Shown: piece after piece, positions 11,308-26,316 of the stretch
Position numbering within the stretch: position 1 is the first letter of the stretch
Layout of the letters: each line of letters starts with the position of its first letter
Assembly (NCBI GenBank): GCA_029862975.1
Contig: JAOTWP010000018.1
Location: 1-43,633 of the forward strand
DNA length: 43,633 bases
Direction of reading: 5' to 3'
Source: Acidobacteriota bacterium
GTDB taxonomy: Bacteria > Acidobacteriota > Thermoanaerobaculia > Multivoradales > JAHEKO01
The notes under the pieces: model-generated
Seen by the model: the letters and a program-made list of their open reading frames with translations, nothing else
Told to the model about the DNA's origin: nothing
The model's database searches: none
Position numbers and translations under genes: made by a program

Positions 11308-12552
11308 TCAGGGCACGGTCGAGGACCAGGCCGACGTGTCGCCGGACTCGAAGCCGTCCGCGAAGAGGTCGAGCTCCGGTCGAATGACGAAGAGCCCCTC
11401 GCCCGTGTCGGTGACGATCACGAGCCCGCTGTCGAAGAACGGGAACGTCGTCCACGCGCCGCTGAAGTTGTTCGAGTCGCTCGTCGGCCGGGTGTCGAGA
11501 AACGCCACTTCGGTCAGCTCGCCGACGGAGAGATCGCCCATCTCGAGAACGCGGAAGCCGGCGCGGTAGTTGCCCTGGAAGACGTGATTGCCGCGCACGT
11601 ACTGGTTGTGATCGGTGGCGAAGGTGGTCGCCGTGTAGGTGCCGGCGAGCGACGGATCGTCGAGGTCCTGGATGTCGAAGACGTAGGTCTTGGTGTTGGT
11701 GCCGTTCTGCTCGTCGCCTTCGTCGCCGTGGATGTAGTAGCGCTGGTCTTCCGTCGTCCACCCCTGATGGGATATCGAGGCTCCGGGATACGGGGTCGAC
11801 GAGAGGGTCACCGGATTGAGCTTGTCGGTGACGTCGACGATTGCCACGAGACCCGTGAGGTCGGCCGCGACGCAGATCTCCTGGCCCTGGTGAGCGACGT
11901 CCGGACCGTTGTAGACCTGGCACACGGCATCGTGGATGTTGCCCGCCTCGCTGTAGCAGCCGGCGAAGACGGGCAGGGTCGGAGTGCTGACGTCGATCAT
12001 GTGCAGACCGCCGCTGCAGGTGTCGTCCGAGACCGGGTAGGCGAAGCCGGTCTCGGGGTTGATGGCGATGTTGTGGGCATCCGAGATCCCGTTGTAGTGC
12101 GCCGTCTCGGCGAAGATCACGGGCGGCGTCACGACGTCGCGCAGCTGCGACAGGTCGAACACCTGCATTCCGTGCCCGGAGGTGTCGGCGGTGACGAAGG
12201 CATGATCGGCGTACACCTTGACGTCTCGGATGAAGGTGGCGAGCCCGTTGTGCGCCGGCAGCGTGCCGACGACGACCGGAGCCTCCGGGTCCGCGAGACT
12301 CACGAAGATGGTCCCCTCGTTGGCCGCGACCAGCGCGTACTCGACGCCGGTCTGCGGATCCTCCCACCCCCAGTTGTCCGACGCCGCGGCGGTGCCGAGC
12401 TCGGCCGAGGAGAGATGGGACATCAACGTGACGTTGCTGCAGGGATAGATGCCCGCCATGCCGTCGACGCAGGGTATCGCCTGCCCGAAGGCGCCGGCCG
12501 CGGCCCCGAAAACGGCCACCACGAGGGTGGCAGCGAATCTGATTGTCATCAT
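11308..12552 (-). CDS. Choice-of-anchor B family secreted protein with FADGFESG tag
   Basis: This 414-residue exported protein has a signal peptide (MMTIRFAATLVVAVFGAAAGAFGQ). Repeats of the LVIVD kind fill the mature part (VFDLSQLRDV, HMIDVSTPTLPVFAGCY, VAIVDVTDKLNPV, YVFDIQDLDDPS). The sequence HNIAINPETGFAYPV with CYSEAGNIHDAVCQVYNGPD is typical of the choice-of-anchor B family, predicted to fold as a beta-propeller. The family is named because its members carry different C-terminal sorting signals in different bacteria. Here the protein ends LFADGFESGDTSAWSSTVP-stop. GGAGG lies just upstream of two consecutive ATG codons; the second gives the better spacing. The ORF track extends far upstream through the end of the oxidase gene, which is not real coding. 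Confidence 0.88.
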   Translation of the reverse strand: MMTIRFAATLVVAVFGAAAGAFGQAIPCVDGMAGIYPCSNVTLMSHLSSAELGTAAASDNWGWEDPQTGVEYALVAANEGTIFVSLADPEAPVVVGTLPAHNGLATFIRDVKVYADHAFVTADTSGHGMQVFDLSQLRDVVTPPVIFAETAHYNGISDAHNIAINPETGFAYPVSDDTCSGGLHMIDVSTPTLPVFAGCYSEAGNIHDAVCQVYNGPDVAHQGQEICVAADLTGLVAIVDVTDKLNPVTLSSTPYPGASISHQGWTTEDQRYYIHGDEGDEQNGTNTKTYVFDIQDLDDPSLAGTYTATTFATDHNQYVRGNHVFQGNYRAGFRVLEMGDLSVGELTEVAFLDTRPTSDSNNFSGAWTTFPFFDSGLVIVTDTGEGLFVIRPELDLFADGFESGDTSAWSSTVP

Positions 12553-12638
12553 GCACCTCCGGTTGTACGCCTGGAGCTCAGGTGGCTTGACCCTACCTGA
12601 TTGCGGCCTCGCCAGCCGCGAGCCGATCCATCCGCCGG

Positions 12639-14411
12639 CTACGGCACGGCGCCCGACCAGGCCGAGGTGTCCCCGGACTCGAAACCGTCCGCGAAGACGT
12701 CCGCGATCTGGAAGAAGGTCATCATGCCGAGCGCCGAGTGCTCGAGGATGTGGCAGTGCGCGAGCCAGCCGCCCGACGTCGCGTCGCCGGGGACCTTGCC
12801 GGACGCGGCGATCCGCCCGACTCTCCCCTTGTCGCGAAAGTTGACGGCGAAGCGCCCGATGCTCCAGCTGTGCCCCGGAACCGTTCCCGGGCGGCGCTTG
12901 ATCAGGAAGGTGTCCTTGTTCTCGAGGTGGGTCGCGGGCTCGACGTAGTTGCGCTCGGGGTCGTTCGGGAAGTCCAGGTCGACGAACTCGGTCTCGATGT
13001 GCTGGAACCCCCAGCCGTGGGTGTGGAAATTGTGATGGGAGCCGGTGAGGTTCTTCACCTCCCAGACGTAGGTCCCGTGGGTCGTGACCGAGTGGACGTC
13101 GCGGGGCGTCAGAGCCTCGAACGGCTTGCCGGGGGCCTGGACGAAGAAGACGACCTCGCCGGTCTCCCAGTCGGGGATCGTGTGTCCCATGACCAGCGGA
13201 AGGGTCGGTGCGTCGGTGGTGTCGATCCTGGTGAGCGTGGTCAGAGGATCCGGCGGCACCCACTCCACGGCGCCGGGCGGGCCCTCGACGACGACCAGGG
13301 CGAAGTGGATGACCTCGTTCGTCCCGTCGGGGACGTCATGGGCCAGGACGACGGTACCGTCGGGCAGGAACTCGACGCTATGGCGGCCCCGTTGGGTATC
13401 GTGCCAGGCCCAGGTGACGGGATCCCCCTCGGCCAGGACGAGGACGACGTCCGCGCGCTCGCCCGGGCTCAGCAGCAGACCGGTCGTCGGATCGGGGTCG
13501 GACTCGTGCCTGGTGCCGGGGTCACCCGAGAACGGCGGCGTACCGAATCCCGAGGGCGGAACCAGGATCGCGTGCTCGATCAAGCCTTGATCGCCGCCGA
13601 TCCGCCACATCGGGACGAACGGAATCGACACCCGCATGAAGCGGGCGTTGGCGACGTTGAGAACTCGCAGCCGGTGCGGCACGCCGCGCTCCATCGTGAG
13701 GGTGGGGAATCTCGCGCCGTTCAGCAGGAAGGCGTTGCCCTCGCGCCCGTTGAGCTGCTCGATCGCCACCTCCTCGCGGGTGCCCAGGAATGGCTCCACG
13801 ATCTGGCCGTCGTCGTCGAGCCAGACGTCGTCGAGCATCAGAACGTGCTCGTTCCCGGGCAGGTCCAATTCGCCGTCCTCGAGCGGGTCGTGAACGATGA
13901 GCGCGCCGTAGAGGCCCTTCTCCACCTGCACGTGGGTCTGGACGTGGGGGTGGTACCAGAACGTGCCCGCGAAGAGGAGAGGAAACTCGTATCGAAACGT
14001 GCCTCCCGGGGGCACGGCGCCTTGGGAGATGTTGCTGCCGTCCATGTTGGCCGGAGTCTCGAGGCCGTGCCAGTGGATGGTGGTGTCGACCGGCAGGTCG
14101 TTGCAGAGATGGACGATCAGCGTGTCGCCGACGTTGGCCTCGATCATCGGTCCCGGAAGAACGCCGTTGTAGGTGAAGACCGCGGTGTCGTTGCCGGTGT
14201 TGAAGTCCCACACCGCCTCGCGCGCGGTGAGGAAGATCTCGACCACCTCGGGATCCGGGTTCACGTCCTCGGCCAGGGCCGGCCGAACGACCCCTTCGAA
14301 GCTGGCCGGGGCCGCGATGCTCCCCGGATCGCAGACGCCTGCGGAGGCGCCGGCGCCGAGAGCGCCAGAGAGCAGCAGGGCGAACGAGAGATGTCGTGGA
14401 TTCGTCGTCAA
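12639..14411 (-). CDS. Secreted multicopper oxidase with FADGFESG tag
   Basis: This 590-residue exported oxidase couples substrate oxidation to reduction of O2 to water. The four copper-ligand segments are present in order: HWHG, WYHPHVQTH, HTHGWGF and HCHILEHSALGMM. The last is a full type-1/type-3 signature with axial Met. Three cupredoxin domains fit the length. The likely start is a TTG (LTTNPRHLSFALLLSGALGAG signal peptide) preceded by GGGAGG at 6 nt; the ORF track start lies in non-coding upstream DNA. The C-terminus is VFADGFESGDTSAWSGAVP, shared with four other exported proteins here. The substrate (metal, phenol or other) cannot be read from the sequence. The next gene on the strand is the choice-of-anchor B protein, 86 bp away. 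Confidence 0.93.
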   Translation of the reverse strand: MTTNPRHLSFALLLSGALGAGASAGVCDPGSIAAPASFEGVVRPALAEDVNPDPEVVEIFLTAREAVWDFNTGNDTAVFTYNGVLPGPMIEANVGDTLIVHLCNDLPVDTTIHWHGLETPANMDGSNISQGAVPPGGTFRYEFPLLFAGTFWYHPHVQTHVQVEKGLYGALIVHDPLEDGELDLPGNEHVLMLDDVWLDDDGQIVEPFLGTREEVAIEQLNGREGNAFLLNGARFPTLTMERGVPHRLRVLNVANARFMRVSIPFVPMWRIGGDQGLIEHAILVPPSGFGTPPFSGDPGTRHESDPDPTTGLLLSPGERADVVLVLAEGDPVTWAWHDTQRGRHSVEFLPDGTVVLAHDVPDGTNEVIHFALVVVEGPPGAVEWVPPDPLTTLTRIDTTDAPTLPLVMGHTIPDWETGEVVFFVQAPGKPFEALTPRDVHSVTTHGTYVWEVKNLTGSHHNFHTHGWGFQHIETEFVDLDFPNDPERNYVEPATHLENKDTFLIKRRPGTVPGHSWSIGRFAVNFRDKGRVGRIAASGKVPGDATSGGWLAHCHILEHSALGMMTFFQIADVFADGFESGDTSAWSGAVP

Positions 14412-14597
14412 CGCGTCCTCCCGCGCGGAGCGAGGAGGCGACCCGTCGTTGCCCACGCCGGCGCAGCTTCCGCCGGTTGCCGCCGCTGCAGCCGCCCGCT
14501 CTCTCGCTCGAACCGGGGCCAGTCTACCAGCCGCCCCGCGACGCGCTCCATTGACGGCGTCGCCACTCCGGGCCATCCTGCAGCGGTCCCGCTGCCC

Positions 14598-15941
14598 GTG
14601 CAAAGGAAGAGGCCTGCCCTGAGCGAACGAAGTCTCCTTGCCGTCCTGATGGCCGTCGCCCTGGCCGGCGTCTCGTCTGCGCAGACGGGCGCGCCGCCGC
14701 CGGCGGCGGGATTCGAGTTCCAGGCGAACACCAACACCACCGGGGCGCAGACCGCGCCGGACGTGGCGGCCCGGGCGGACGGCAGTTTCGTCGTAGTCTG
14801 GGAGAGCGACGTGTCATCGGGCGACGATAGCGACGGGACCAGCGTCCAGGTTCGTCGCTTCGCCGCCGATGGCGCACCCCTCGACCCCGCCGAAGTGCAG
14901 GTCAACACGTTCACGACCGGCCCTCAGAGAGCTGCGGCCGTCGGTGCGCGGCCGGACGGCTCGTTCGTCGTGAGCTGGGCGAGCGGCGCGGTGGGCAGCG
15001 AGGACATCCTGGCGCGCCGCTTCGCCGCCGACGGCACGCCTCTCGACCCCGCGGACTTCATTGCCAACACCTACACCTCGAGCTCCCAGAGCCGACCCGA
15101 AGTGAGCGTCGACGCCGCTGGCAACTTCGTGCTGACCTGGTCGAGCCTCGGCTCGCTCGGAAACGACGGTGACGGCGAGAGCATCCAGGCGCGGCGCTAT
15201 GCGGCCGATGGCACGCCGCTCGACGCGACCGAGTTCCAGGTCAACACCGTGACCGCGTCCAACCAGTTCGATCCCCATGTCGCCTTCACTCCGGGCGGTG
15301 ACTTCGTCGTCGTCTGGAGCACGGACACCGCCGTCCGCGGCCGGCGCTTCGCCGCCGACGGCACACCGCTCGACGCCTCCGACTTCGATGCCAGCACGGC
15401 GGGCGTCTTCACGTTCTCATCGAGCGTCGACACCACGTCCGACGACGGTTTCGTCGTGGCGTGGGGCTCCTTCGCCGGCGGCCCGGAGGACCCGGAGATC
15501 GAGGCTCGGCGCTTCGCGGCGGACGCGACGCCGCTCGACCCGACCGAGTTCCGGGTCAACGCTCTGACGGCGGGCGGCCAGATCCCCGGAGTCGTCACCG
15601 CGGCCCCGGACGACAGCTTCGTCGTCTCCTTCGCGAGCGACGGCTCCTTCGGCGACGACACGTCCGCCGACAGCGCTCAAGCGCGGCAGTACCGTGCCGA
15701 CGGCACCGCGGTCGAGGCGAACGAGTTTCAGCTCAACTCCTACACGACCCAGGCGCAGAACGTGCCACGCATCGACATCCTGACCTCGGGCGATCTCGTC
15801 GCCGTCTGGCCCAGCCAGGGCTCCCTGGGCGACGACGACGACAACTGGAGCGTTCAGGTCCGGCGCTTTCTGCTGCGCCAGATCTTCGCCGACGGGTTCG
15901 AGTCCGGCGACACGAGCGCCTGGTCGGGCACCGTTCCCTGA
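14598..15941 (+). CDS. Secreted seven-repeat protein with FADGFESG tag
   Basis: This exported protein of about 447 residues is built of roughly 55-residue repeats. Each contains a strand like SFVVVWES, a short Asp/Gly-rich loop (GDDSDG) and a phrase like RRFAADGTPLDP..FQVNT.T. I count seven such units, the first split at the N-terminus, as expected for a seven-bladed beta-propeller closed between its ends. The signal peptide h-region is LLAVLMAVALAGVSSAQ. The start is uncertain: GTG (used here) gives a basic n-region, while the first ATG lies inside the hydrophobic part. A CTG preceded by GGAAGAGG is a third option. It ends IFADGFESGDTSAWSGTVP. It is divergent from the oxidase gene, with 186 bp between them. 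Function unknown; surface binding is plausible. Confidence 0.82.
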   Translation: MQRKRPALSERSLLAVLMAVALAGVSSAQTGAPPPAAGFEFQANTNTTGAQTAPDVAARADGSFVVVWESDVSSGDDSDGTSVQVRRFAADGAPLDPAEVQVNTFTTGPQRAAAVGARPDGSFVVSWASGAVGSEDILARRFAADGTPLDPADFIANTYTSSSQSRPEVSVDAAGNFVLTWSSLGSLGNDGDGESIQARRYAADGTPLDATEFQVNTVTASNQFDPHVAFTPGGDFVVVWSTDTAVRGRRFAADGTPLDASDFDASTAGVFTFSSSVDTTSDDGFVVAWGSFAGGPEDPEIEARRFAADATPLDPTEFRVNALTAGGQIPGVVTAAPDDSFVVSFASDGSFGDDTSADSAQARQYRADGTAVEANEFQLNSYTTQAQNVPRIDILTSGDLVAVWPSQGSLGDDDDNWSVQVRRFLLRQIFADGFESGDTSAWSGTVP

Positions 15942-16032
15942 AGCTCGTTCCCTACGGAGTCGATCCCCCCCGCCGCCATTTCGCCGGCGCTCTGGAGCCT
16001 CTGGCTCGCGCAGCGGTGCTCGGCCGGTGTCC

Positions 16033-16203
16033 ATGAAGAACGATCCGCGGCGGATGCACCGGGAGATGTCCGATATTCGCGAGCTTCTTCGAGTGACGGA
16101 CCTCGATCGGGAAGAGGTCCGCGCGTATTTCGAGAAGCACGGGATGCTAGCCTTGTGGGATGAGCTCGCGGCCGACGATGACCCTCGCCCACCTCGAGCG
16201 TGA
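16033..16203 (+). CDS. 56-residue ORF resembling a nucleotidyltransferase C-terminus
   Basis: This small ORF is below the ORF-track cutoff. It encodes MKNDPRRMHREMSDIRELLR and TDLDREEVRAYFEKHGMLALWDEL. That helical pattern is what I recall from the C-terminal end of DUF6036-like nucleotidyltransferases, which are often antitoxin-like or part of two-gene modules. The catalytic N-terminal part (GS...DxD) is absent upstream, so this is probably a truncated remnant. It overlaps the start of the next small ORF in another frame, as functional gene pairs often do. No strong ribosome-binding site is seen. The family link is from memory and tentative. Confidence 0.4.
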   Translation: MKNDPRRMHREMSDIRELLRVTDLDREEVRAYFEKHGMLALWDELAADDDPRPPRA

Positions 16204-16366
16204 CCTGCCGACGACGCGGCGCGACGTCGAGGCGTTGAGGCGCGCAGCGGAGGTGGTGCCGGTGGATCCGATGGCGGCCGTTCAGATCCTCGCCGACGCG
16301 CTGCCTGCCGCGGCCAGGAGACCGCGCACCGACACGGCGATCGGCCGTCTTCAGTTCGAGCTCTGA
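16160..16366 (+). CDS. 68-residue hypothetical protein overlapping the preceding ORF
   Basis: The sequence begins MSSRPTMTLAHLERDLPTTR and ends TAIGRLQFEL. It starts inside the last 44 bp of the 56-residue ORF in a different frame, an arrangement suggesting translational coupling. The TLAHLERDLPTTRRDVEALRRA portion looks helical and resembles small partner proteins that follow DUF6036-type nucleotidyltransferase genes. That resemblance is from recall only. If its partner is truncated, this gene may be a leftover. A chance ORF in GC-rich DNA cannot be ruled out. Confidence 0.4.
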   Translation: MSSRPTMTLAHLERDLPTTRRDVEALRRAAEVVPVDPMAAVQILADALPAAARRPRTDTAIGRLQFEL

Positions 16367-16471
16367 AGACGCGCTCCCAGGTCGCGCACTCCTGCGGCCG
16401 GGCCGCTCCCTTTCGGTCGGCAATCCGCGGGGGGCGTATTCACCCGGGCAGCCGCAGGATCCGCCCGGCGT

Positions 16472-17173
16472 CTACTCCGGGGACGAGGCGCGGGTGGCCT
16501 CCACCCAGGCCCACAGCTGGGTCAGCTCCTCGCCGGTCAGCTCGCCGCGGTAGGCCGGCATCGAGAGCAGCTGGCGGCGCCAGAAGGTCCGCACCAGCGG
16601 GTTGGCGGCCAGGCGCCGGCTCGTGCCGTCGAGCACCCATTCGCGGAACTCCGCCTCGTCGCGCACGAGGTCGCTGAAATTGCCGCCCAGAAACCCGGGC
16701 ACGAAGCCGCCGAGCGAGCCGGGATTGGGCATGCCGCCCGAGCCCTCGGGACCGTGGCACGAGTGGCAGCCCTGGCGGCGCGCCAGCTCGCGCCCCGCCG
16801 CAGCCGCCTCGCCGCCGGCCGGCTCGACGCCCTCCACGGCGCAGGCAAACGCCGTCAGGTCGGCGATCTCGCGCTCCGACAGTGCCTCCCCGTAGGCCGG
16901 CATGCGCACTCGCTGGCCGGCGAGGCGCTCCGACGCCCGCGGGTCCTCGAGCCATGCGACCGGGGCCCCGAACCGCACCAGCTCCTCGATCTGCCCTCGG
17001 TCTTTCGCGTACATCATCGCGTTGCCGGAAGCGAACCTGGGCACCGTTCCCCAGCGGCTGCCGGGGTTGGGGATCTCGCGCGCGCCGAACGGCCGATGAC
17101 AGCCCATGCAGCCAGCCTCCTCGGCGAGGAGGCGGCCACGCAGGATGGGGTTGAGCTCCCGGCGCCACAGCAC
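16472..17173 (-). CDS. Di-haem c-type cytochrome, probably membrane anchored
   Basis: This periplasmic electron carrier has two covalent haem sites, CMGCH near residue 22 and CHSCH near residue 137. Each is followed by a Met-containing segment that can supply the sixth ligand (VRMPAYGEALSE; LSMPAYRGELTGEE). It reads as two tandem cytochrome c domains. The first canonical start is a GTG giving 233 residues. However, the frame remains open upstream and encodes RRRLLIALLAAAVLAAAALPVL, a typical single-helix anchor, with no ATG, GTG or TTG before the preceding stop. A CTG start therefore seems likely, close to or overlapping the end of the upstream Cys/His gene. Both genes are probably co-transcribed. 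The redox partner is unknown. Confidence 0.88.
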   Translation of the reverse strand: MLWRRELNPILRGRLLAEEAGCMGCHRPFGAREIPNPGSRWGTVPRFASGNAMMYAKDRGQIEELVRFGAPVAWLEDPRASERLAGQRVRMPAYGEALSEREIADLTAFACAVEGVEPAGGEAAAAGRELARRQGCHSCHGPEGSGGMPNPGSLGGFVPGFLGGNFSDLVRDEAEFREWVLDGTSRRLAANPLVRTFWRRQLLSMPAYRGELTGEELTQLWAWVEATRASSPE

Positions 17174-17270
17174 CTGGCGCAGAACCGGCAGCGCGGCAGC
17201 GGCCAGGACGGCGGCCGCCAGCAGCGCGATCAGGAGGCGGCGGCGCGCGGACAGAGGTCTGCGCCGATCC

Positions 17271-17633
17271 TCAGCCGGCGGCCCTGGCGGCGGTGACGGT
17301 CACCAGCTTCATGCCGTCCTTCTCGCTCAGCACTCCCTTCACCTCGGCCTTCTCGCCGGCCAGGTCCTTGAGCGCCTCGTAGGGAGCGCCTTCCTTGTGG
17401 TCGGCCGCCAGCAGCACGAGGTCTCCCTCGCTGGTGAGCAGTCCCATCGGCTGCCCGTTCTTCACGCAGCTCTTGGCGCACCCGGCGTGGTCCGCACCGT
17501 GAGCTCCCTGGCTGAGATAGCACGCGAGATCCACCACTTCGCCGGTCCAGCTGCCTTGGTCCGGCTGCGCCAGCGCTCCGAGGGCGAAGGTCAAGGCGAG
17601 CGCCACCACCGATACTACGATCTTCCGTTTCAT
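17271..17633 (-). CDS. Small secreted Cys/His protein, unknown function
   Basis: This 120-residue protein starts with a clear signal peptide (MKRKIVVSVVALALTFALGALAQ), with AAAGGAGC eight nt before ATG. The mature part has the compact motif VDLACYLSQGAHGADHAGCAKSCVKNGQPMGLL. Its three Cys and two His could bind a metal or form a disulfide. A beta-rich stretch with TSEGDLVLLAADH and AEVKGVLSEKDGMKLVTV follows, resembling an OB-like or stress-response barrel. It precedes and probably shares a transcript with the di-haem cytochrome, so a role in periplasmic redox or metal handling is possible but inferred. I do not recognise a named family. Confidence 0.8.
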   Translation of the reverse strand: MKRKIVVSVVALALTFALGALAQPDQGSWTGEVVDLACYLSQGAHGADHAGCAKSCVKNGQPMGLLTSEGDLVLLAADHKEGAPYEALKDLAGEKAEVKGVLSEKDGMKLVTVTAARAAG

Positions 17634-17750
17634 TGTCAGCTCCTTTCGAGGCCTCGATCATAGCGCAGACCGCGGGTGCCCGCCGCGCTCGACTCCCGGA
17701 GCTTCTTTTGCCAGGATCGGCGCCGCGGCACGGCGGCCACCGGCGACGCC

Positions 17751-17856
17751 GCGGTCGAGGAGATCTACGCAGGCCCCAAGGCCGCGCTGCGGCCGATCCA
17801 TGACCGGGTGATGCAGGCGATCGAGCAGCTCGGACCCTTCGAGATCGCGCCCTCCT
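17751..17856 (+). pseudogene. Fragment of a DUF5655-like domain
   Basis: The translation AVEEIYAGPKAALRPIHDRV followed by MQAIEQLGPFEIAP matches, from memory, the start of DUF5655 domains. There YxGPKAALRPI, then a helix, then GPxEIAPKK continues into a YVSLRRKKQFA strand. That continuation is missing; the frame runs instead into the CPBP protease gene. It appears to be a relic about 35 codons long. Its presence makes the ORF-track start for the protease misleading. Confidence 0.5.
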
Positions 17857-17912
17857 CCGAGCTCGCCCCTACCTTGGGCGCCGCGCCATCTGTCACAATC
17901 GCTGGCAGCACG

Positions 17913-18695
17913 ATGCAAGCACGGCTCGAAGGATCGCGGCTCGCCGCCGTCGTTCTGGCGGTCTTCGTCGCCTACTGGTTCCTCGAAGAGCTGCTCGTCC
18001 TCGTGCCCGGCTATCGGGGGCTCTTCGACCGCTTCGAGTACTACGTCCCGCGGTCGCTGCTGAGCGTCGCCGAGATCGCGCTGGTGCTGCTCGCGGTCTG
18101 CTGGCTGCATCGCCTCGGCCCGCCGTCGGGCCTCCGCGAGCTCGGCCTGCGATCACCAGCCGCCAGGGCCGGCGGCTTCGGCCTGGTGGCGACGGCGCCG
18201 ATGTGGCTGGTGTTCGCGGCGACCCACGACTTCGCCCCGGATCCCGTCCCCGAGCTCCTCTACGGAAGCCTGCTCTCGCCGCTCGCCGAGGAGCTCGTCT
18301 TTCGCGGCTTTCTCTTCGGTCAGCTGTGGCGGCGAGCGGGCTGGGGGCTGTGGCCGGCGCTGGCCGTGAGCTCCCTCGCCTTCGGCTACGGTCACGCGGA
18401 GGACGCCGCGAGGCTCACGGAAGGACTTGGCCTGCTTGCCGTCACCGCCCTCGGCGCCGCGATCTTCGCCTGGCTCTACTCCCGCTGGGGCACGTTGGTG
18501 GCGCCCCTGGCCCTGCACGTGCTGATGAACGCGAGCTGGGGGCTGTGGCAGGTGGGAGACGGCGCGCTCGCCGGCTGGGTGCCCTTCGCGCTACAGCTGA
18601 CGACCGTGACGCTGGCGATCGTCCTCACGCTGATGGCGGCGAAGCGGGGCTGGATGGCCGCGGCGGACGATTCAGCTACGGCGCCCGTTCTCTGA
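17913..18695 (+). CDS. CPBP-family intramembrane metalloprotease
   Basis: This polytopic protein of about 260 residues has the hallmark motifs of the CPBP (CAAX protease and bacteriocin-processing, Abi) family. These are EELVFRGFLF (EExxxR), AFGYGH (FxxxH) and HVLMNASWG, which lie in successive membrane helices and form the active site. Seven or eight hydrophobic segments are visible. Family members cleave membrane proteins near C-terminal signals, process prenylated proteins or confer bacteriocin immunity; the substrate here is unknown. I chose the ATG at MQARLEGSRLAAVV because the upstream in-frame codons encode a DUF5655-like relic. It sits amid genes for proteins with the FADGFESG tag, but that tag has no membrane helix, so a direct link is speculative. 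Confidence 0.87.
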   Translation: MQARLEGSRLAAVVLAVFVAYWFLEELLVLVPGYRGLFDRFEYYVPRSLLSVAEIALVLLAVCWLHRLGPPSGLRELGLRSPAARAGGFGLVATAPMWLVFAATHDFAPDPVPELLYGSLLSPLAEELVFRGFLFGQLWRRAGWGLWPALAVSSLAFGYGHAEDAARLTEGLGLLAVTALGAAIFAWLYSRWGTLVAPLALHVLMNASWGLWQVGDGALAGWVPFALQLTTVTLAIVLTLMAAKRGWMAAADDSATAPVL

Positions 18696-18700
18696 TCGAG

Positions 18701-18717
18701 GAGGCGGCACGCGCCTC
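18701..18717. terminator. Hairpin between convergent genes
   Basis: GAGGCG-GCACG-CGCCTC forms a 6-bp stem just after the CPBP stop codon and before the end of the convergent 161-residue gene. A short CCCTTTC follows on the plus strand. It is a modest terminator candidate. Confidence 0.3.
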
Positions 18718-18736
18718 GCTAGCCCTTTCAGCCCGG

Positions 18737-19222
18737 TCACCAGTCGTCCATCCGCGCCTTGATCGCCCTGCGCAGGGCCGCGTCGCTCAGCGGCCCCGCG
18801 GCGACCGGCTGCCCGGCGATCGCCACCTGCGGGGCGGGACGGGAGGGATCGGGCGCCTCGTGGCGCCAGAGCGGCTGCAGCTCGTGCTCCGCCAGGGCGG
18901 CGGTGACCACCGCCGCGAGCCGCTCTCGCTCCTCGGCCTCGTCGGCCCCCAACACCACCTCGATCTCCGAGTAGAGGTGGCGGATGTCCTCGCCGCGGTG
19001 CCGCAGGTACTCGCGCCACAGGGCCTTGCGGTAGTCCTCCTCCGACACGGGCGGCACGTAGTTGGCGCGCCCGATGGCGGCGAGCAGCAGCGCGACGATC
19101 TCCTCGCGCCCTTCGCGACCCGAGGCCGCCGCCTGCTCGCAGGCCGCCTCGAGGCCCACGATTCCCACCCGATCGAGCCCGATCAGGATCTTCGACACCC
19201 CTTTCGGCCCGCAGCTCACCAT
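18737..19222 (-). CDS. Hypothetical cytoplasmic protein, 161 residues
   Basis: The family is not recognised. There is no signal peptide or membrane segment. The middle is charged and helical (YVPPVSEEDYRKALWREYLRHRGED). The C-terminal part, PQVAIAGQPVAAGPLSDAALRRAI, has the cadence of the end of a thioredoxin-like fold (PxVxVxGxxVxxGxxx..eL..al), but the resemblance is loose. Two Cys occur near the N-terminus (SCGPKGVSKILI; EAACEQ). It could be a redox or chaperone-type protein; I make no firm call. It converges with the CPBP protease gene and is followed upstream by a very short RHH-like ORF on the same strand. Confidence 0.65.
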   Translation of the reverse strand: MVSCGPKGVSKILIGLDRVGIVGLEAACEQAAASGREGREEIVALLLAAIGRANYVPPVSEEDYRKALWREYLRHRGEDIRHLYSEIEVVLGADEAEERERLAAVVTAALAEHELQPLWRHEAPDPSRPAPQVAIAGQPVAAGPLSDAALRRAIKARMDDW

Positions 19223-19234
19223 GCTTCGCTCAGG

Positions 19235-19333
19235 CTAGGCGGCTGCGTAGAGCACGAGGCGCGGGATGTCGCGGCGGGCCAGGCGCAGCGTCCTCTCCAT
19301 CTCTTCGTCCAGGGTGAAGGTCGCGCGTTTCAT
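19235..19333 (-). CDS. 32-residue RHH-like mini-ORF
   Basis: The ORF encodes MKRATFTLDEEMERTLRLAR, then DIPRLVLYAAA and stop. A GGAG lies 8 nt before ATG. The beginning resembles the strand and first helix of ribbon-helix-helix antitoxins or CopG-type regulators, but the protein is less than half the usual length. It may be a truncated antitoxin; no toxin gene is adjacent. It ends 12 bp before the 161-residue gene starts on the same strand, so it could act as a leader ORF for it. Confidence 0.35.
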   Translation of the reverse strand: MKRATFTLDEEMERTLRLARRDIPRLVLYAAA

Positions 19334-19539
19334 GTTCACACTCCGTTCATACTACCGTCCGAGCGTTCCCTGGCGCCGAGAGGCCCGACGTCCGCGCCTC
19401 CCCTCCGCAGCTGGATCTGGCAGGGAACCGGCCGTTCATCATGCGGTCATCTGCTCGCTGCTACCTTGCGTCCAACAGTGCTTCGCGGCCGCTCGCGAGC
19501 AGCCGCTATTCGACGGTCGTCTTCCAGAAGGGGGCAGCG

Positions 19540-20757
19540 ATGCATCTCGAGTCAGGATCCCGCGTCTCGATGGCCCTCGGCGTCCTGTGGGTCGCCGTCT
19601 CGTGGACGCCGCTGGCCGCCGCGCCGGCGGACGGGCCCTGGACCCTCGTCGACAGCCCCAACCCCGGTCCGGCCCAGAACCGCCTGATCGACGTGACCCG
19701 CCTGGGCTCGAACGGAGTTCTCGCGCTGGGACGGGAGTACGCCGAGTACTTCGGCCTGGAATGGGGCGGCACGGAGTGGCTCGAGATCGCGATGCCCCCC
19801 CAGGAAGACATCGGCATGGGGTACGCGCTGGACAGCCTCGGGAGCACTCCCGGCGGCGACGTGTGGGCGGTCGGCATCGTCGGGATAGACCCCTTCACCG
19901 GCTTGCCGCTGGCGATGCGCTACAACGGCACCGAGTGGGACCGCATCGAAACGGTCCCGCTCGAGCCCGCCGGCCGCAACGGTCACGTGTTCGACGTGTC
20001 CGCCGTCAGCGACGACGACATCTGGGCGGTCGGCAACAGCGACGGGCCGCTGGCCGTGCACTGGGACGGCTCGGAGTGGACCGAGAACTCGCCCCCCGCG
20101 CCCGGCAACCGGATCCACGACACGTTCGCCGTCGCGGCGGTGGCGAGCGACGACGTGTGGGCCGTCGGCCATTTCGAGAACGTGGCGCCCGCCGAGCCCC
20201 TGGGTTTCTACCCCATGATCCTCCACTGGGACGGCACCTCCTGGAGTCACTTTCCCAACCCCGGCCAGGCGCTCGAGCGCCGGACCCTCCTCGACGTCGA
20301 GGCGGTGGCCGCGGACGACGTCTGGGTCAGCGGCTACTGGTGGTACGGCCTCTGCGAGCACCCGTCGGGAGCGAGCTACTGCGACCCGTTCTTCATGCAC
20401 TGGGACGGCTCGGAGTGGTCGGTCGTCCCCAGTCCGGCCGACACGGAGCGCGCCTACGTGAGCGAGCTCACGGCCTTCGCCAGCGACGACATCTGGGCCA
20501 GCACCGGGGCCGAGTACATGCACTGGGACGGCACGGAGTGGAGCGTGGTCGCGGCGCCCGACGTCCCCGGCGCCGAGACCGTCCGCCACGGCAGCGGCAT
20601 GGTCGCCGTGGGGCCGGACGTCGCCTGGTCCGTGGGCCGCTGGGAGCCCGCCGACGGCGGCTGGACCCGCACGCTCAGCGAGCGCTACCGCGCGAGCCTC
20701 TTCGCCGACGGCTTCGAGTCCGGCGACACCAGCGCCTGGTCGGCCGTCGTGCCCTGA
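19540..20757 (+). CDS. Secreted seven-bladed propeller-like protein with FADGFESG tag
   Basis: This 405-residue exported protein has a signal peptide (MALGVLWVAVSWTPLAAAPA). Repeats of 45-60 residues follow the pattern S.DDIWAVG......L..HWDGSEW. I count about seven, consistent with one seven-bladed beta-propeller. Asp-rich turns (DDIWAVG) are conserved between blades. The ATG at MHLESGSRVS was chosen because AGGGGGC lies 5 nt upstream; the ORF track adds 33 unsupported residues. The C-terminus is LFADGFESGDTSAWSAVVP. No catalytic motif is visible, so a binding or structural role at the cell surface is likely. Its seven-bladed plan is shared with the repeat protein ending at 15941, but the repeat sequences differ. 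Confidence 0.85.
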   Translation: MHLESGSRVSMALGVLWVAVSWTPLAAAPADGPWTLVDSPNPGPAQNRLIDVTRLGSNGVLALGREYAEYFGLEWGGTEWLEIAMPPQEDIGMGYALDSLGSTPGGDVWAVGIVGIDPFTGLPLAMRYNGTEWDRIETVPLEPAGRNGHVFDVSAVSDDDIWAVGNSDGPLAVHWDGSEWTENSPPAPGNRIHDTFAVAAVASDDVWAVGHFENVAPAEPLGFYPMILHWDGTSWSHFPNPGQALERRTLLDVEAVAADDVWVSGYWWYGLCEHPSGASYCDPFFMHWDGSEWSVVPSPADTERAYVSELTAFASDDIWASTGAEYMHWDGTEWSVVAAPDVPGAETVRHGSGMVAVGPDVAWSVGRWEPADGGWTRTLSERYRASLFADGFESGDTSAWSAVVP

Positions 20758-20760
20758 GCG

Positions 20761-20786
20761 GCGACCGCCTCCCGGCGGGGGTCGCG
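20761..20786 (+). terminator. GC-rich hairpin after the propeller gene
   Basis: GCGACC...GGTCGC closes an imperfect stem a few bases past the stop codon. No T-run follows, so function is uncertain. Confidence 0.25.
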
Positions 20787-21029
20787 GTTACGGGGGTCCG
20801 GGAGGGGCGCGGGGTCGACGCTGCCTGCGCCCCGCCCGACCGGGTGGTGACCCGGCCACGCTCGGGGACGTAGCCTCGAGGCTACCCGGTGGAAACCCGA
20901 GACCGCGGATCGGGCTCGACGGCGTGGTCGACCCTGCTCGCGGTCCGATCGAACGTCAGCCCGCGCGGTCCGGTCGAAGCCGACGACGCTGGGTTCCGGC
21001 GTACGGGCGGCGATCTGAAAGGAGCCGCG

Positions 21030-21614
21030 ATGCAGAAGCACGTAAAGCTCAAGGACCAGAGCGAGGTCCTCATCCGTGAGATGACGCGGGACGATCTCGC
21101 GGCATCCCTCGCCTTCTTCGAGTCACTCTCCGAGGAAGACCGCACCTACCTGCGGAGGGACGTCACGAAACGGGAAGTCGTGGAGCGGAGGATCCGCGAG
21201 GTCGAGGCCGGCACCGCGATCCGGCTGGTCGCCGTGGCCGACGGGCAGATCGTGGCCGACGGCTCCCTGGAGATCTCGAGCGAGGAATGGAAGGCGCACG
21301 TCGGCGAGCTGCGGCTGATCATCGCGCGCCCCTACCGCCGCAAGGGACTCGGCATCAGGCTGGCCGGCGAGCTGTTCCTGCTGGCGTCCAGCGCGCGGGT
21401 AGAGGAGATCGTCGTCAGGATGATGAGGCCCCAGAAGGCGGCCCGCTCTATCTTCCGCAAGCTCGGATTCCGGCAGGAGACGGTCCTGCCGGACTACGTC
21501 AAGGACCTGAGCGGGACGAGGCAGGACATGATCCTGATGCGCTGCGACCTGGAAGCCCTGTGGAGCGAGATGGAGGACTTCATCGCCACGGGTGACTGGC
21601 AGCGAACCCAGTAA
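21030..21614 (+). CDS. GNAT-family N-acetyltransferase
   Basis: This 194-residue cytoplasmic protein has the GNAT acetyl-CoA fold. It shows IREMTRDDLAASLAFFESL at the N-terminus, a central LVAVADGQIVADGSL hairpin, and ELRLIIARPYRRKGLGIRL, which contains the R/Q-x-x-G-x-G/A pyrophosphate loop. A C-terminal ARSIFRKLGFRQETVLPDYV is typical of the family. The substrate is unknown. The ATG is set by AAAGGAGC 5 nt upstream; the longer ORF-track start lacks support. It follows the propeller gene by about 270 bp with no recognisable gene between, so it may have its own promoter. Confidence 0.87.
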   Translation: MQKHVKLKDQSEVLIREMTRDDLAASLAFFESLSEEDRTYLRRDVTKREVVERRIREVEAGTAIRLVAVADGQIVADGSLEISSEEWKAHVGELRLIIARPYRRKGLGIRLAGELFLLASSARVEEIVVRMMRPQKAARSIFRKLGFRQETVLPDYVKDLSGTRQDMILMRCDLEALWSEMEDFIATGDWQRTQ

Positions 21615-21829
21615 TCGCCCTCTCGGCACTCGCTCCCGACACGGCCGACCGCACCACCGCCGCGGGGATGCTCGCGATCTCGTCCTTGCGCTCCAGCACG
21701 GCGACCGGGCTGCTCGCGACCAGCGCTGGGCTCGGCTGCAGCCGCTGCCCGGTCCAGCGAACCGTAACCCCACTGTCATCTCCGGGGCGCTACGCTCTCG
21801 ACCTGGTTGCAAGCCCGAGGAGATCCGTC

Positions 21830-22366
21830 ATGCGTCGCATCGTTCCGTCCCTGGCTCTCGCCGTCGCCCTGCTCTACTTGCCGGGAATCCCCGCCGCGGC
21901 CAGCCCGCACGTGTTCGCCGGGATCGACTTCGCGGTCGCGGACGTCGGCTTCTCGCTCGGCTTCGCCGACCTCGGCCACCGCCGGGGCCGTGGCCGCGGC
22001 CACGACGATCACGATGGCGGCTACTACTATCGAACGCGCGTGCCCCTGACCTCCCGCGAGCACCGGTGCAGCGACGCCTGCTACCTGCGGGACGACGTCT
22101 ACTACCACCATCCCGAGTGCCCGGTCGTCCTGCAGCACTTCGACCGCTACGGCTTCGACCCCTACCCGGTCTGGACGGCGCTGCCCGACGACGGCCTCTT
22201 CTACTACCCCTACGCTCACGGCCCGGAGTTCCACGACGATCACCACGGGCGGCGCCACGGCGGCGGCCACGGCGGCCGCCGCGGCCGGCGCCACGACGAC
22301 GGCGACTCGGACTCCGACTCCGACTCCCACCGGCGACGCGGCGGGCGCGGCTGGCACGACGACTAG
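21830..22366 (+). CDS. Small secreted His/Asp/Arg-rich protein
   Basis: This 178-residue protein starts with a signal peptide (MRRIVPSLALAVALLYLPGIPAAA) and has GAGGAG 6 nt upstream of ATG. The mature part has three zones: a Gly-rich beginning, a central Cys/Tyr/His region (CSDACYLRDDVYYHHPECP, YYYPYAHGPEFHDD), and a low-complexity tail of His, Asp, Gly, Arg and SD repeats ending GRGWHDD. Such composition suggests binding of divalent metals or anionic polymers; no family is recognised. The tail is compositionally extreme even for this GC-rich DNA. A 14-bp tandem duplication spans the stop codon. Confidence 0.7.
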   Translation: MRRIVPSLALAVALLYLPGIPAAASPHVFAGIDFAVADVGFSLGFADLGHRRGRGRGHDDHDGGYYYRTRVPLTSREHRCSDACYLRDDVYYHHPECPVVLQHFDRYGFDPYPVWTALPDDGLFYYPYAHGPEFHDDHHGRRHGGGHGGRRGRRHDDGDSDSDSDSHRRRGGRGWHDD

Positions 22367-22390
22367 CAGCGCGGGGCTAGCAGCGCGGGG
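22363..22390. repeat. 14-bp tandem duplication across a stop codon
   Basis: CTAGCAGCGCGGGG occurs twice in a row; the first copy contains the TAG stop of the His-rich gene. It is probably a replication-slippage duplication. Confidence 0.8.
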
Positions 22391-22439
22391 GCTCGCCGCA
22401 GCACGGGGGTACCTATCCGCGAGGTAGACGCTGTCCGGA

Positions 22440-23078
22440 TCAAGGCTCTTGGGTCGCGGACGACAGCGCTCCTCGCGCTTCGACCAGGGCTTGCTCCACG
22501 CGCTTGGAACCGGCGCCGGAAGAGGCGGGGCCTCGATCCGCGAGCGCGCTCCAGGCGCTCTCGTCGGTCGCCTCGTGCTGGCGCTCCATGACGATCAGCC
22601 AACGCCCGTCCTTCTTCACCAGCAGCGCCTCGAACGGGATGAAGACCGGCTCCTCCACGCCGTCCGCGTCGGTCTCCGCGTACCTGAAGACGCCGCGCTC
22701 GAAGGCCGTCGCCTCGTCGTCCTGGCGGCTGGAGAAGCGGAACGAGACGCTGGCGCTCCTGCCTTCGAGGCGGGCACGCTCCATGCCCTCGCCCCACTCG
22801 ACGAGCTGGCGGGCGATGGCGACCGTGCCCTTGCTGGAGACGAGAACCGCGTCCGCGTGGTAGGTCGCCGCCATTCCCGCGAGGTCCCCCGCCGCGACGG
22901 TGGCCGAGATCACGTTCCAGATCGCCGCGTCGATCTCGTCGCTGCTCGCTGCGCGAGCCACGGCAACCGGCATGGCGAGCAGCGCGAGCGCGAGCGCCGA
23001 AGCGAGGAGCCCCGACCAGGCCGGCTTCCCTGGCCCGGTGGGGCTTCGCGGCGACCTCGATGCCTGCAGTCTCGTCAC
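22440..23078 (-). CDS. Exported NTF2-like (DUF4440/SnoaL-type) protein
   Basis: This 212-residue protein has a signal peptide (GLLASALALALLAMPVAVARA) and an NTF2-like fold. Helical DEIDAAIWNVISATVAAGDLAGMAATYHADAVLVSS is the classic opening of SgcJ/EcaC- or DUF4440-type domains. Paired strands follow (SVSFRFSSRQDDEATAFERGVFRY and FEALLVKKDGRWLIVMERQHEA). Such domains bind small ligands or act as pockets; no catalytic residue can be assigned. The best start is a GTG giving MTRLQASRSP; the ORF track continues upstream into unlikely sequence. It converges with the His-rich gene and lies just downstream of the kelch-repeat gene on the same strand. Confidence 0.8.
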   Translation of the reverse strand: MTRLQASRSPRSPTGPGKPAWSGLLASALALALLAMPVAVARAASSDEIDAAIWNVISATVAAGDLAGMAATYHADAVLVSSKGTVAIARQLVEWGEGMERARLEGRSASVSFRFSSRQDDEATAFERGVFRYAETDADGVEEPVFIPFEALLVKKDGRWLIVMERQHEATDESAWSALADRGPASSGAGSKRVEQALVEARGALSSATQEP

Positions 23079-23160
23079 CGGTAGGGAGTCTAGCCAATCC
23101 TGACGCCGACGCCACGGGGATCGCCCGGGCGACCGCGCCGCCTGCGTTCCCTCGCTCCGG

Positions 23161-26100
23161 TCAGGGCACGACGGCCGACCAGGCGCTGGTATCGCCGGAC
23201 TCGAACCCGTCGGCGAAGATCCCGCTGGGCGCCTGAGCGCAGTAGGCGGCCCCGGTGCCGGTCTGTCCGCTCTGGTTCCAGGCGCCACCCCAGACGAGCA
23301 TCTGGTCGCCGGTCCACACGCTGGTCTGCGAATGCCGCGGGAACGGGACGGCGGCGCCCGTGCTGGTGGGCGTCCAGCCGTCCGCGGCCGGGTCGTAGCG
23401 GCCGCCGGTGTCGAAGTTGCCGCCGCCGTCGCTACCTCCCCAGACGATCATCTCCGCGCCGCTCCACTCCGTCGAGTGGCGGAAGCGCGCCGCGGGGGCG
23501 CCGAGGCCGGCGAGGGCGCTCCAGCTGTCGGTCGCCGGCGAGTAGCGCGCTCCGTCGCCCAGGGGACCGGAGGCGTTCTCCCCGCCCCAGACGATCATCT
23601 CGTCGCCGGTCCATTCGACGGTGTGGTGGCGCCTCGGGTCCGGGGCCCCGGCGAGGCTCGTCGGCGCCCAGCTGTCGGTCGCCGGGTCGTAGCGGCCCCC
23701 GGTGTCGGTCTCGCCGCCCGCTCCCGTCCAGCCGCCCCAGATGATCATCTCGGAGCCCGTCCAGACCGCGAGGGTCTCGGTCGCCGAGCTCGTGGCGGTG
23801 CGCGCCGAGGGCGCGCCGACCGTGCTGGTCGGGGTCCACGAGTCGGTCGCCGGGTCGTAGCGGCCGCCGGTGTTGAAGTAGGGCGTGCTACAGCCGGCGC
23901 AGCCGCCCCAGACGATCATCTCGGTGCCCGTCCAGACGCCCGACTGGTTCAACCGCGGCTGCGGCGCGCCGGCCGTGCTCATGGGCGTCCAGGAATCGGA
24001 GACCACGTCGTAGCGCTCGCCGGTGTTCGAGGCGCCCACTCCGGCCTCGCTGCCGCCCCAGACGAGCATCTCGGACCCGGTCCAGACCGCCGTCGGCCGA
24101 TCGCGGCCCCGGCCACCGAACGGATTGACCTCGACCCAGTGGTCGGTCGCCGGATCGTAACGGGCGCCGTCGTTCGACGCCCCGGCCCCACCCCAGAGGA
24201 TCATCTCGGCGCCCGTCCACACGGCGCTGTGGTTGATCCGCGCCACGGGTCCGGTCTCGAGCGAGGTCGGCACCCAGCTGTCCGTCGCCGGATCGTAGCG
24301 CCCGCCGCTCGACAGCTCGGCCTGACACTCGCCGCCCGTGCAGCCGCCCCAGAGAATCATCTCCTCGCCCGTCCAGATCGCCGTGTGCGCCGCGTGGTAG
24401 GGCGCCCCGACCTCGCTCGTGGCCGTCCAGGCATCGAGCGCCGGGTCGTAGCGGCCGCCGGTCGCGGTCTGGAACGAGCATTCGTCGTGGGTGCAGCCAC
24501 CGTGGAGAATCATCTCCTCGCCGGTCCAGATCGCCGTGTGCCGGTAGCGCGCGAAGGGCTCGTTCGCGCCGCTCGTCGGGGACCAGGTGTCGGCAGCCAG
24601 ATCGTACCGCGCGCCGCCGGCGATGAACTCGAAGCAGCCGTCGGTCCGGCAGCCGCCGAAGACCAGGATCTCGCTGCCGGTGGAGACCGCGCTGTGAAAC
24701 ATGCGGGCCTCGGGCGCGTTCGTCGTGGTCATCGCGGTCCAGCCGTCGGTCACCGGGTCGTAGCGGGCGCCGTCGTTCAGGGCGTTGGCGGGCGGGGGGC
24801 CCTCACCGGCCCAGACGACCATCTCGCTGCCCGTCCAGTTGCTGGTGTGGAACTGCCGCGGGCTCGGCGCACCGACCGTGCTGGTCGCGATCCAGGAATC
24901 GGAGGCAGGGTCGTAGCGCCCGCCGCTGTCGAGGTAGGCGCCGCAAGCCATGGTATCGCCGCAGCCGCCCCAGACGATCATCTCGCTGCCCGTCCACACG
25001 GCGGTGTGCAGACCCCGGGGGCTCGGCGCGCCGGCCGTGCTCGTCGCGGTCCACGCGTCCGTCACGGGGTCGTAACGGGCCCCCGTGTTGACCGCATTCA
25101 CGGTGCCGGTGCCATGGAACCCGCCCCAGACGATCATCTCGCTGCCCGTCCAGACGCCCGCCGAGACCATGTTTCCTTCCGGATGGCCGGTGGTGCTGAC
25201 CGGGTGCCAAACGTCTAGGGCGGGGTCGTAGCGACCGCCCGGCTCGGCCGCGCCGAAGACGTCGCGATTGCCCCAGACCAGCATCTCGGCGCCGGTCCAC
25301 ACCGCGACGTGGCCCACCTTGCCGGCGGGCAGATAGCGCATCGGGCTCCAGCTGTCGTCCGGGCAGGCGCCGGCGATCCGCGGGAGCCGCAGCTCCGGCT
25401 CGTTCCAGCTCGGCTCCGCCGGCAAGGCCCGCCGCGCCTCGGACCACCACTCGTGGAAGGGCACCTTCGGCCAGGCGACCTCGGCGACCCGCAGGCGGCC
25501 CGGCTGGCTCTCGAGCACGGCGACGACGAAGAACCGGTCCGGGTCCTCGCGCAGAGGACTGCGCCCGAGACCGCGTTCGAGACCGCGTTCGAGAAACAGG
25601 CTCGGCGAAGACAGCAGTCGCTCGTCGCCGCCGAGGTCCAGCAGCCGAGCCAGGTGCCGCAGCGCCTGATCCCAGCCCCGCTGGTCGAACCGCCGCTCGT
25701 CCGGCTGCGCGGCGGGCTCCTGCCAGCCCTCGGGGTCCAGGATCCAGACGCTCTCGGAGTAGTCGCCGTTGAGCAGCCGCATCCCCTCGCGACCGCCGCT
25801 GCGGTCGAGCTCCTCCTGCGCCTGCCCGCGCACCGCCTCGTGGAAGCGCCCGTCGAACGCGTACCAGCTCCGAATCAGCCGGTCGGCCAGCAGCGGCCGC
25901 GCGAGGCACTCCGCGATCACCCCGGGATCGTCGCCGAGGGCCGCCCACAGCTCGCGCAGCGTCTCCGGCGCCCGGGTGTTCCGTGCCATGTGCTCGATCT
26001 CGGCGCGCAGCTGGCTCTCCGTCAGCGGCCGGCTCCAGATCTCGGCCAGCGCGTTCGACTTCAGCCACGCGTCCTCGACCCTTGCCGCGAGCACGCCGGC

Positions 26101-26316
26101 CTCCAGAACGGCGGAGAGCGGCGGCTTCGGCCGCGGGTTGTCCGCCGGCCACAGCCGGTGGCGCCATCTGACCTCTTCGAGCGCCCGCTCGCAGGCCACC
26201 CTGTCCTCGAAGCTCAGCGGCGCCGCTTCGGCGGCGGCCATGCCCGGCAGCACCAGCGTCAGCGCCAGCAGCGGCCAGGGGTTCCTCCATCGGTATCGAG
26301 GGCACAGGTCTTCCAT
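23161..26316 (-). CDS. Large secreted kelch-repeat protein with helical N-domain and FADGFESG tag
   Basis: This 1051-residue exported protein has a signal peptide (NPWPLLALTLVLPGMAAAEA). Residues 35-330 form a mostly helical domain (VACERALEEVRWRHRLWP; ALAEIWSRPLTESQLRAEIE; ECLARPLLADRLIRSWYAFD). From memory this domain recurs in Acidobacteriota kelch proteins and resembles SurA-type periplasmic chaperone domains. Residues 340-1030 contain fourteen kelch units of about 50-55 residues, each with HTAVWTGSEMIVWGG and GGRYDPATDSWTPTST. Fourteen fits two seven-bladed propellers. Extra Cys pairs appear in some blades (GGCGDTMACG, GGCAGC), suggesting disulfides. It ends IFADGFESGDTSAWSAVVP. The ATG at MEDLCPRYRW gives the signal peptide; the longer ORF start is not supported. 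The ligand is unknown. Confidence 0.88.
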   Translation of the reverse strand: MEDLCPRYRWRNPWPLLALTLVLPGMAAAEAAPLSFEDRVACERALEEVRWRHRLWPADNPRPKPPLSAVLEAGVLAARVEDAWLKSNALAEIWSRPLTESQLRAEIEHMARNTRAPETLRELWAALGDDPGVIAECLARPLLADRLIRSWYAFDGRFHEAVRGQAQEELDRSGGREGMRLLNGDYSESVWILDPEGWQEPAAQPDERRFDQRGWDQALRHLARLLDLGGDERLLSSPSLFLERGLERGLGRSPLREDPDRFFVVAVLESQPGRLRVAEVAWPKVPFHEWWSEARRALPAEPSWNEPELRLPRIAGACPDDSWSPMRYLPAGKVGHVAVWTGAEMLVWGNRDVFGAAEPGGRYDPALDVWHPVSTTGHPEGNMVSAGVWTGSEMIVWGGFHGTGTVNAVNTGARYDPVTDAWTATSTAGAPSPRGLHTAVWTGSEMIVWGGCGDTMACGAYLDSGGRYDPASDSWIATSTVGAPSPRQFHTSNWTGSEMVVWAGEGPPPANALNDGARYDPVTDGWTAMTTTNAPEARMFHSAVSTGSEILVFGGCRTDGCFEFIAGGARYDLAADTWSPTSGANEPFARYRHTAIWTGEEMILHGGCTHDECSFQTATGGRYDPALDAWTATSEVGAPYHAAHTAIWTGEEMILWGGCTGGECQAELSSGGRYDPATDSWVPTSLETGPVARINHSAVWTGAEMILWGGAGASNDGARYDPATDHWVEVNPFGGRGRDRPTAVWTGSEMLVWGGSEAGVGASNTGERYDVVSDSWTPMSTAGAPQPRLNQSGVWTGTEMIVWGGCAGCSTPYFNTGGRYDPATDSWTPTSTVGAPSARTATSSATETLAVWTGSEMIIWGGWTGAGGETDTGGRYDPATDSWAPTSLAGAPDPRRHHTVEWTGDEMIVWGGENASGPLGDGARYSPATDSWSALAGLGAPAARFRHSTEWSGAEMIVWGGSDGGGNFDTGGRYDPAADGWTPTSTGAAVPFPRHSQTSVWTGDQMLVWGGAWNQSGQTGTGAAYCAQAPSGIFADGFESGDTSAWSAVVP
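23230..25330 (-). repeat. Fourteen kelch-unit coding repeats
   Basis: Roughly 150-170 bp coding units recur fourteen times inside the kelch gene, each holding a TGGACCGGC-GAGATGAT core. Codons differ between units, so this is an old protein-level repeat array rather than recent DNA amplification. Confidence 0.85.

Follow-up and report, generated by a model that had tools for sequence, protein, structure and literature searches.

Short C-terminal tags on dozens of exported proteins per genome are known from the MYXO-CTERM/myxosortase (PMC11980579), GlyGly-CTERM/rhombosortase (PMC3237569) and PEP-CTERM/exosortase systems. In the dockerin-cohesin system, many clients dock on a few SLH-anchored acceptors (PMC12484212). 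In TasA, chaperone-usher and type V pili, a strand of one protein completes the jelly roll or beta-sandwich of another; in the case of TasA, the N-terminal strand of one subunit completes the jelly roll of the next (PMC9674648). The C-terminal domains of the type IX secretion system (T9SS) are beta modules borne by many secreted proteins. Split domains of the SpyTag/SpyCatcher type, in which a peptide is parted from its domain of origin and paired with it covalently, are engineered. Here we describe a 19-residue peptide, the tag, that ends five proteins encoded in a stretch of 43,633 nucleotides of Acidobacteriota DNA (contig JAOTWP010000018.1, positions 1 to 43,633; hereafter the window). About 90 copies of the tag, on unrelated bodies, are found in the genome to which the window belongs (G000; 4.49 Mb, 309 contigs).

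We consider it probable that the tag is a donor strand, one that completes a secreted acceptor protein lacking strand 1 of its own fold and shared by many clients. With slightly more reserve, we favor the wider reading that this is a natural split-domain sorting system: the strand is carried by 60 to 150 or more exported proteins per genome and the remainder of the domain by a single secreted acceptor (SLH-anchored in some lineages), with many-to-one and probably non-covalent docking at the surface or in a matrix, within one class of Acidobacteriota.

Such a system would differ from each of those above. TasA, chaperone-usher and type V pili use an N-terminal strand to join like subunits into a fibre, whereas here a C-terminal strand on dozens of unrelated proteins would be received by one acceptor. 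To our knowledge, there is no sequence relation between those systems and the tag. As with dockerins and SLH scaffoldins, a common client module would meet few acceptors that are at times fused to SLH domains. In contrast to the EF-hand dockerin, however, the tag has only 19 residues and would be part of the acceptor's own fold, and the G000 acceptor is a single-domain protein; moreover, dockerin (PF00404, EF-hand-like Ca-binding repeats) matched neither the five tagged proteins of the window nor any of the top families of 80 tagged proteins. The tag shares M36 bodies with T9SS C-terminal domains but is much shorter and makes up strand 1 of a concanavalin A (ConA)-like jelly roll. The pairing with SpyTag/SpyCatcher is close in that a peptide and its domain of origin are involved, but the pair proposed here is natural and a covalent link is unlikely.

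The tag and its distribution

The pattern [ILV]F-x-DGFESGDTSxWSxxVP-stop (19 residues; one written-out form is IFADGFESGDTSAWSATVP) gave 98 matches in a scan of G000 and hundreds over the class, numbers far beyond chance. Among nearly all of the G000 matches, the motif lies near the stop codon in 87 distinct frames, 80 of which end at the identical residue as ...SAWSxxVP-stop. In the MYXO-, GlyGly- and PEP-CTERM signals, in contrast, the motif is followed by a transmembrane helix and a basic cluster. An earlier note, made from the window sequence alone, had set the tag apart from these signals and from LPxTG; indeed, it has no hydrophobic helix after the motif and no basic cluster. Within the core of the tag, the 80 copies carry about 2 bits of nucleotide information at most first and second codon positions and usually less at third positions; the value falls to about 0 to 0.5 bit per base downstream of the stop and is 0 to 1 and codon-periodic upstream. 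DNA conservation thus drops sharply at both tag borders. Because third positions vary and the flanks are unconserved, the conserved unit is the peptide and not the DNA, as the note had deduced from differing codons.

By a simple scripted test, a signal-peptide-like start is present in 63 of the 67 tagged proteins whose 5' frame is complete and in 14 of 47 untagged proteins; the test is permissive, so that only the contrast between the two groups is meaningful. The tagged proteins are likely exported. Their bodies include FG-GAP, kelch, PQQ and BNR propellers, M36 and S8 peptidases, multicopper oxidase, beta-helix and MauG-like proteins, among others. Four to six of them match NCBI models for "myxosortase-dependent," "rhombosortase-dependent" and "T9SS-dependent" M36 peptidases, and further ones match "choice-of-anchor B" and "Q" models. 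These model names imply a constant body whose C-terminal signal is swapped between lineages, and the tag therefore fills the slot of a sorting signal. In three G000 proteins (L073, L077, and L078), the 19-residue module is not C-terminal and instead directly follows the signal peptide.

Named genomes recovered by pattern scan are mostly Thermoanaerobaculia and other Acidobacteriota metagenome-assembled genomes, with the motif usually 11 to 20 residues before the stop. Chloroflexi, Armatimonadetes, Actinomycetota and others have it at internal or N-terminal positions, where it begins a larger domain. Tag matches were found in 63 of 149 genomes of the class, many with at least 61 matches each and one with at least 150, and genus g23 has zero tags in those of its genomes that were listed. 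Motif-bearing genomes that seem to lie outside the class have one or two copies, in one instance six. The tag is confined to one class, the Thermoanaerobaculia-type Acidobacteriota. Depending on the lineage, usually 0 to about 8 residues follow the Trp, so that the cross-lineage core reads [ILV]F.DGFE[ST]GD....W. Orthologous long choice-of-anchor B proteins from elsewhere end in divergent short-tag versions; the core is therefore maintained across families. No paper in the literature searched contains the motif DGFESGD, and none pairs this class with sorting signals. The tag is real, widespread, and undescribed in the literature and databases searched.

The jelly-roll domain and its strand-1-less form

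The choice-of-anchor B body ends in the 19-residue tag in tag-rich genomes and, in tag-poor relatives (G038, G044, G045, and G046), in a domain of about 200 residues that opens with the tag motif (for example, IFADGFESGDLASWSKSKGDAVSVTTPGLDGSSHALSVSV...). In almost every copy inspected, this whole domain is C-terminal and reaches the stop. Two large proteins, L292 (G055) and L299 (G056), have three consecutive copies of it at the C-terminus. AlphaFold2 (AF2) predicts the whole domain to be all beta, with a mean predicted local distance difference test (pLDDT) score of 94.8 and with the tag as the first strand (E2-5) and a loop. Fold comparison places it with the ConA-like jelly rolls, next to alginate lyases, Cip1 and lectin-like folds. 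The resemblance to described jelly-roll families is at the level of fold only, as the whole domain has no significant Pfam match and a sequence search of the PDB was uninformative. On these models, the tag is strand 1 and the following loop of an undescribed concanavalin-like jelly roll of about 200 residues, and not the free-standing novel motif for which the earlier note took it.

The acceptor was first noticed through partial domain matches that start at about domain residue 21 to 35, without strand 1, and that included small secreted proteins in which this jelly roll begins at strand 2. With a profile built from such proteins (A5), 55 of the 149 genomes of the class have a match to the domain, usually in one stand-alone copy; the match in G000 is at C303:46497-47084 (E 4e-43). 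The acceptors of tag-rich genomes have no FExG motif upstream, and in 36 of 37 the signal-peptide core directly precedes strand 2. By inspection, acceptors end at the last strand, which reads [FY]xSxR and in many cases has TLAP after it. Alignment by hhalign pairs columns 22-199 of the whole domain with columns 2-184 of the acceptor (probability 99.9, E 1.5e-32). Moreover, the AF2 model of the G000 acceptor (pLDDT 92.2) has the strands of the whole domain minus those of the tag. This protein, too, has no significant Pfam match, its similarity being one of fold only.

Donor-strand complementation implies an acceptor that is one strand short of its fold and partners that carry the lacking strand. 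The hhalign alignment and the AF2 strands point to the first; the second is found in the tag, as strand 1 plus loop, and in fusions in cis. In G038 (L297/L322), a signal peptide is followed by IFADGFESGDTSAWS and then the acceptor. In G496 (L360), a frame of 687 residues contains LFADGFESGNTSAWSVTVP-KRNA-LAVNAPAALLGSFGLEV (LAVNAPAAL...), with the complete 19-residue tag immediately before the acceptor. In addition, SLH domains (PF00395, E about 1e-11 to 1e-16) follow the acceptor in families f9 (G088, G089) and f3 (G028, G029), and a dockerin-like repeat follows it in G105. As read from these sequences, the fusions link the tag to the acceptor and the acceptor to an anchor.

Tag and acceptor also occur together. 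A verified acceptor is present in 37 of 47 genomes with at least 10 tags and in 5 of the 102 others (Fisher p 2e-20) and, by genus, in 21 of 25 tag-rich genera versus 2 of 45 others (p 7e-12), values that overstate independence given the shared ancestry within one class. The contrast is clear within a single family, f7, where g21 and g22 have both tag and acceptor and g23 has neither in all of its genomes listed. When 396 genomes were sampled evenly over the phylum, the acceptor domain was found outside the class only in two genomes of one genus.

Besides shared ancestry, several observations weigh against a donor strand with a dedicated acceptor. No verified acceptor was found in 10 of the 47 tag-rich genomes, and three of these 10 that are at least 90% complete (G030, G049, and G103) gave no acceptor match at all; conversely, five tag-poor genomes (G020, G021, G088, G090, and G105) have one. 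Some proteins of tag-poor f1 genomes bear the whole domain while others bear the bare tag. Finally, the G000 acceptor modelled by itself is given a confident fold and so may be autonomous, and it has no anchor of its own, which leaves cell attachment in that genome unaccounted for.

In the proposed pathway, client proteins (roughly 60 to 150 per genome) would be exported by Sec, after which the C-terminal tag, comprising beta-strand 1 ("[ILV]F.D") and the loop "GFESGD..S.W," would insert into the small secreted acceptor. The jelly roll thus completed would keep the clients together or bound to the cell surface or matrix, and in some lineages SLH domains on the acceptor would anchor the complex. 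All of these are presumed here: binding in trans, a non-covalent mode of docking, and the place where the complex ends up. A covalent isopeptide is unlikely because no Lys of the acceptor is invariant. The last strand of the acceptor does have an invariant Asp, and we conjecture that this residue and the tag's acidic residues (D..E..D) would suit Ca2+, which might assist docking.

If correct, this would be C-terminal sorting by completion of a fold and not by membrane-enzyme cleavage, which would set it apart from both the sortase-type tags and the T9SS domains compared above. It would account for the possible display of scores of unrelated proteins by these bacteria, and for an entire bacterial class the set of extracellular proteins would become predictable from sequence. 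Loss of a single gene, that of the acceptor, should release all clients, and the natural peptide/acceptor pair would be usable for protein attachment.

Export, processing and other explanations

The main rival is a role in export, with the type II secretion system as the best alternative. Here the tag would direct proteins from the periplasm to the outside through that or another machine, and the strand-1-less proteins would either be further secreted proteins of the domain family or serve the tag as a chaperone in the periplasm. The secretins fit this in part: tagless g23 genomes (G063, G064, G069, G077, and G079) have a single, PilQ-like secretin, and the tag-rich genomes searched also have a GspD-like one, whose frame is often about 930 residues long. 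However, G036, G020, and G105, which are tagless or tag-poor, have a GspD-like secretin too, the tag is found right after the signal peptide as well, and an acceptor that lacks exactly the tag is left unexplained. We regard an export signal as unlikely.

Still less likely is a processing signal, at or near which a protease or transpeptidase would cut and attach the protein to the surface, as for GlyGly-CTERM, MYXO-CTERM or T9SS. The extreme C-terminal position of the tag would suit this, as would host families (M36 and choice-of-anchor) that bear processed signals elsewhere; the missing transmembrane helix and basic cluster and the three N-terminal placements speak against it. Nor did a partner emerge. 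Exosortase (PF09721) was not found in G000 or in five other f1 members searched and was rejected on that ground, although it is present in most tag-rich genomes outside f1. Rhombosortase (TIGR03902) was rejected with a best G000 score of 30.7 bits against a cut-off of 84; myxosortase (CPBP) was not searched for. SprA of the T9SS had no match in 33 genomes, in a search run without a positive control. Thus, where the earlier note had proposed a new sorting, retention or processing signal, a new and selective sorting or retention element is supported and processing is not favored, for want of a fitting sortase-type partner and in view of the N-terminal placements. Separately, one divergent exosortase-like protein (PF09721), mostly of about 200 residues, occurs in G024, G027, G031, G035, G054, G055, G058, G061, G084, G085, G100 and others.

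That the tag begins a larger domain in relatives would also be expected of a functionless remnant, an ancestral C-terminal jelly roll cut after strand 1 and then copied among genes. The earlier note had named a start of a larger domain truncated by chance as one of the findings that would undo its proposal. The larger domain exists, but its truncation is no accident: about 80 G000 proteins share the end residue, and the remaining domain is encoded once, elsewhere. Moreover, the peptide is conserved despite codon differences and between unconserved flanks, and the tag is kept across many families and co-occurs with the strand-1-less acceptor. A remnant is therefore hardly credible. Least credible is a repeated DNA element that encodes the tag and spreads by recombination: extra copies of tag DNA do lie just past the stop in a few genes (L015 and L044), but conservation generally ends at the tag borders, within 57 to 60 bases, and synonymous sites vary freely, which led us to discard it.

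Tagged proteins of the window

All five tags reported in the earlier note were recovered in frame with the stop directly after them (Table 1), on bodies that differ as it had described: choice-of-anchor B, multicopper oxidase, kelch repeats and two other repeat or propeller-like proteins. No Pfam or NCBIfam model match covers the tag in any of the five; for the choice-of-anchor B protein, the TIGR04312 profile stops short of it. The signal peptides ascribed to all five are plausible from their N-termini, although the scripted start call missed that of the 19540-20757 protein. Exported proteins without the tag exist in the window, as the note had said, for example at 8568-11201(-) and 21830-22366(+).

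Table 1. Tags and tagged proteins of the window, with related features elsewhere in G000
Feature	Location	Strand	Length	Sequence or matches
Tag 1	11311..11367	-		LFADGFESGDTSAWSSTVP + stop
Choice-of-anchor B protein, tagged	11308..12549	-	413 aa	Signal peptide; TIGR04312 E 2.3e-133, residues 26-390
Tag 2	12642..12698	-		VFADGFESGDTSAWSGAVP + stop
Multicopper oxidase, tagged	12639..14411	-	about 590 aa	Signal peptide; PF07732 E 1.7e-31, PF07731 E 3.9e-13
Tag 3	15882..15938	+		IFADGFESGDTSAWSGTVP + stop
Repeat protein, tagged	14598..15941	+		Signal peptide if start is GTG at 14598; no Pfam family
Tag 4	20698..20754	+		LFADGFESGDTSAWSAVVP + stop
Propeller-like repeat protein, tagged	19540..20757	+		Weak Pfam matches only
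Tag 5	23164..23220	-		IFADGFESGDTSAWSAVVP + stop
Kelch-repeat protein, tagged	23161..26316	-	1051 aa	Kelch_1/Kelch_3 and related, E down to 5e-77
N-terminally placed module, L077	G000:C303:58905			
N-terminally placed module, L078	G000:C175:42300			
G000 acceptor	L318:2423-3085 = G000:C303		220 aa	Signal peptide, then NTSLAVTNAAAIDGNFGLEV...SHMDSFVSTR

At L015:2156-2349 and L044:1625-1719, one or two further copies of the tag DNA and of part of its 3' flank lie just past the stop, which leaves fragments such as SESGDTSAWSSTIP; L057 has a similar stray fragment near 4379. Other choice-of-anchor B proteins end differently from the one in the window. L187, from the tagless genome G036, ends in a different, Cys-containing domain (...CGSPLQALDVATCTLTPVAVVP), another choice of anchor, and L196 (G022) and L210 (G021) have repeated Cys-rich units, CxxCGPCxEGxGDCDxDxEC, in place of the tag.

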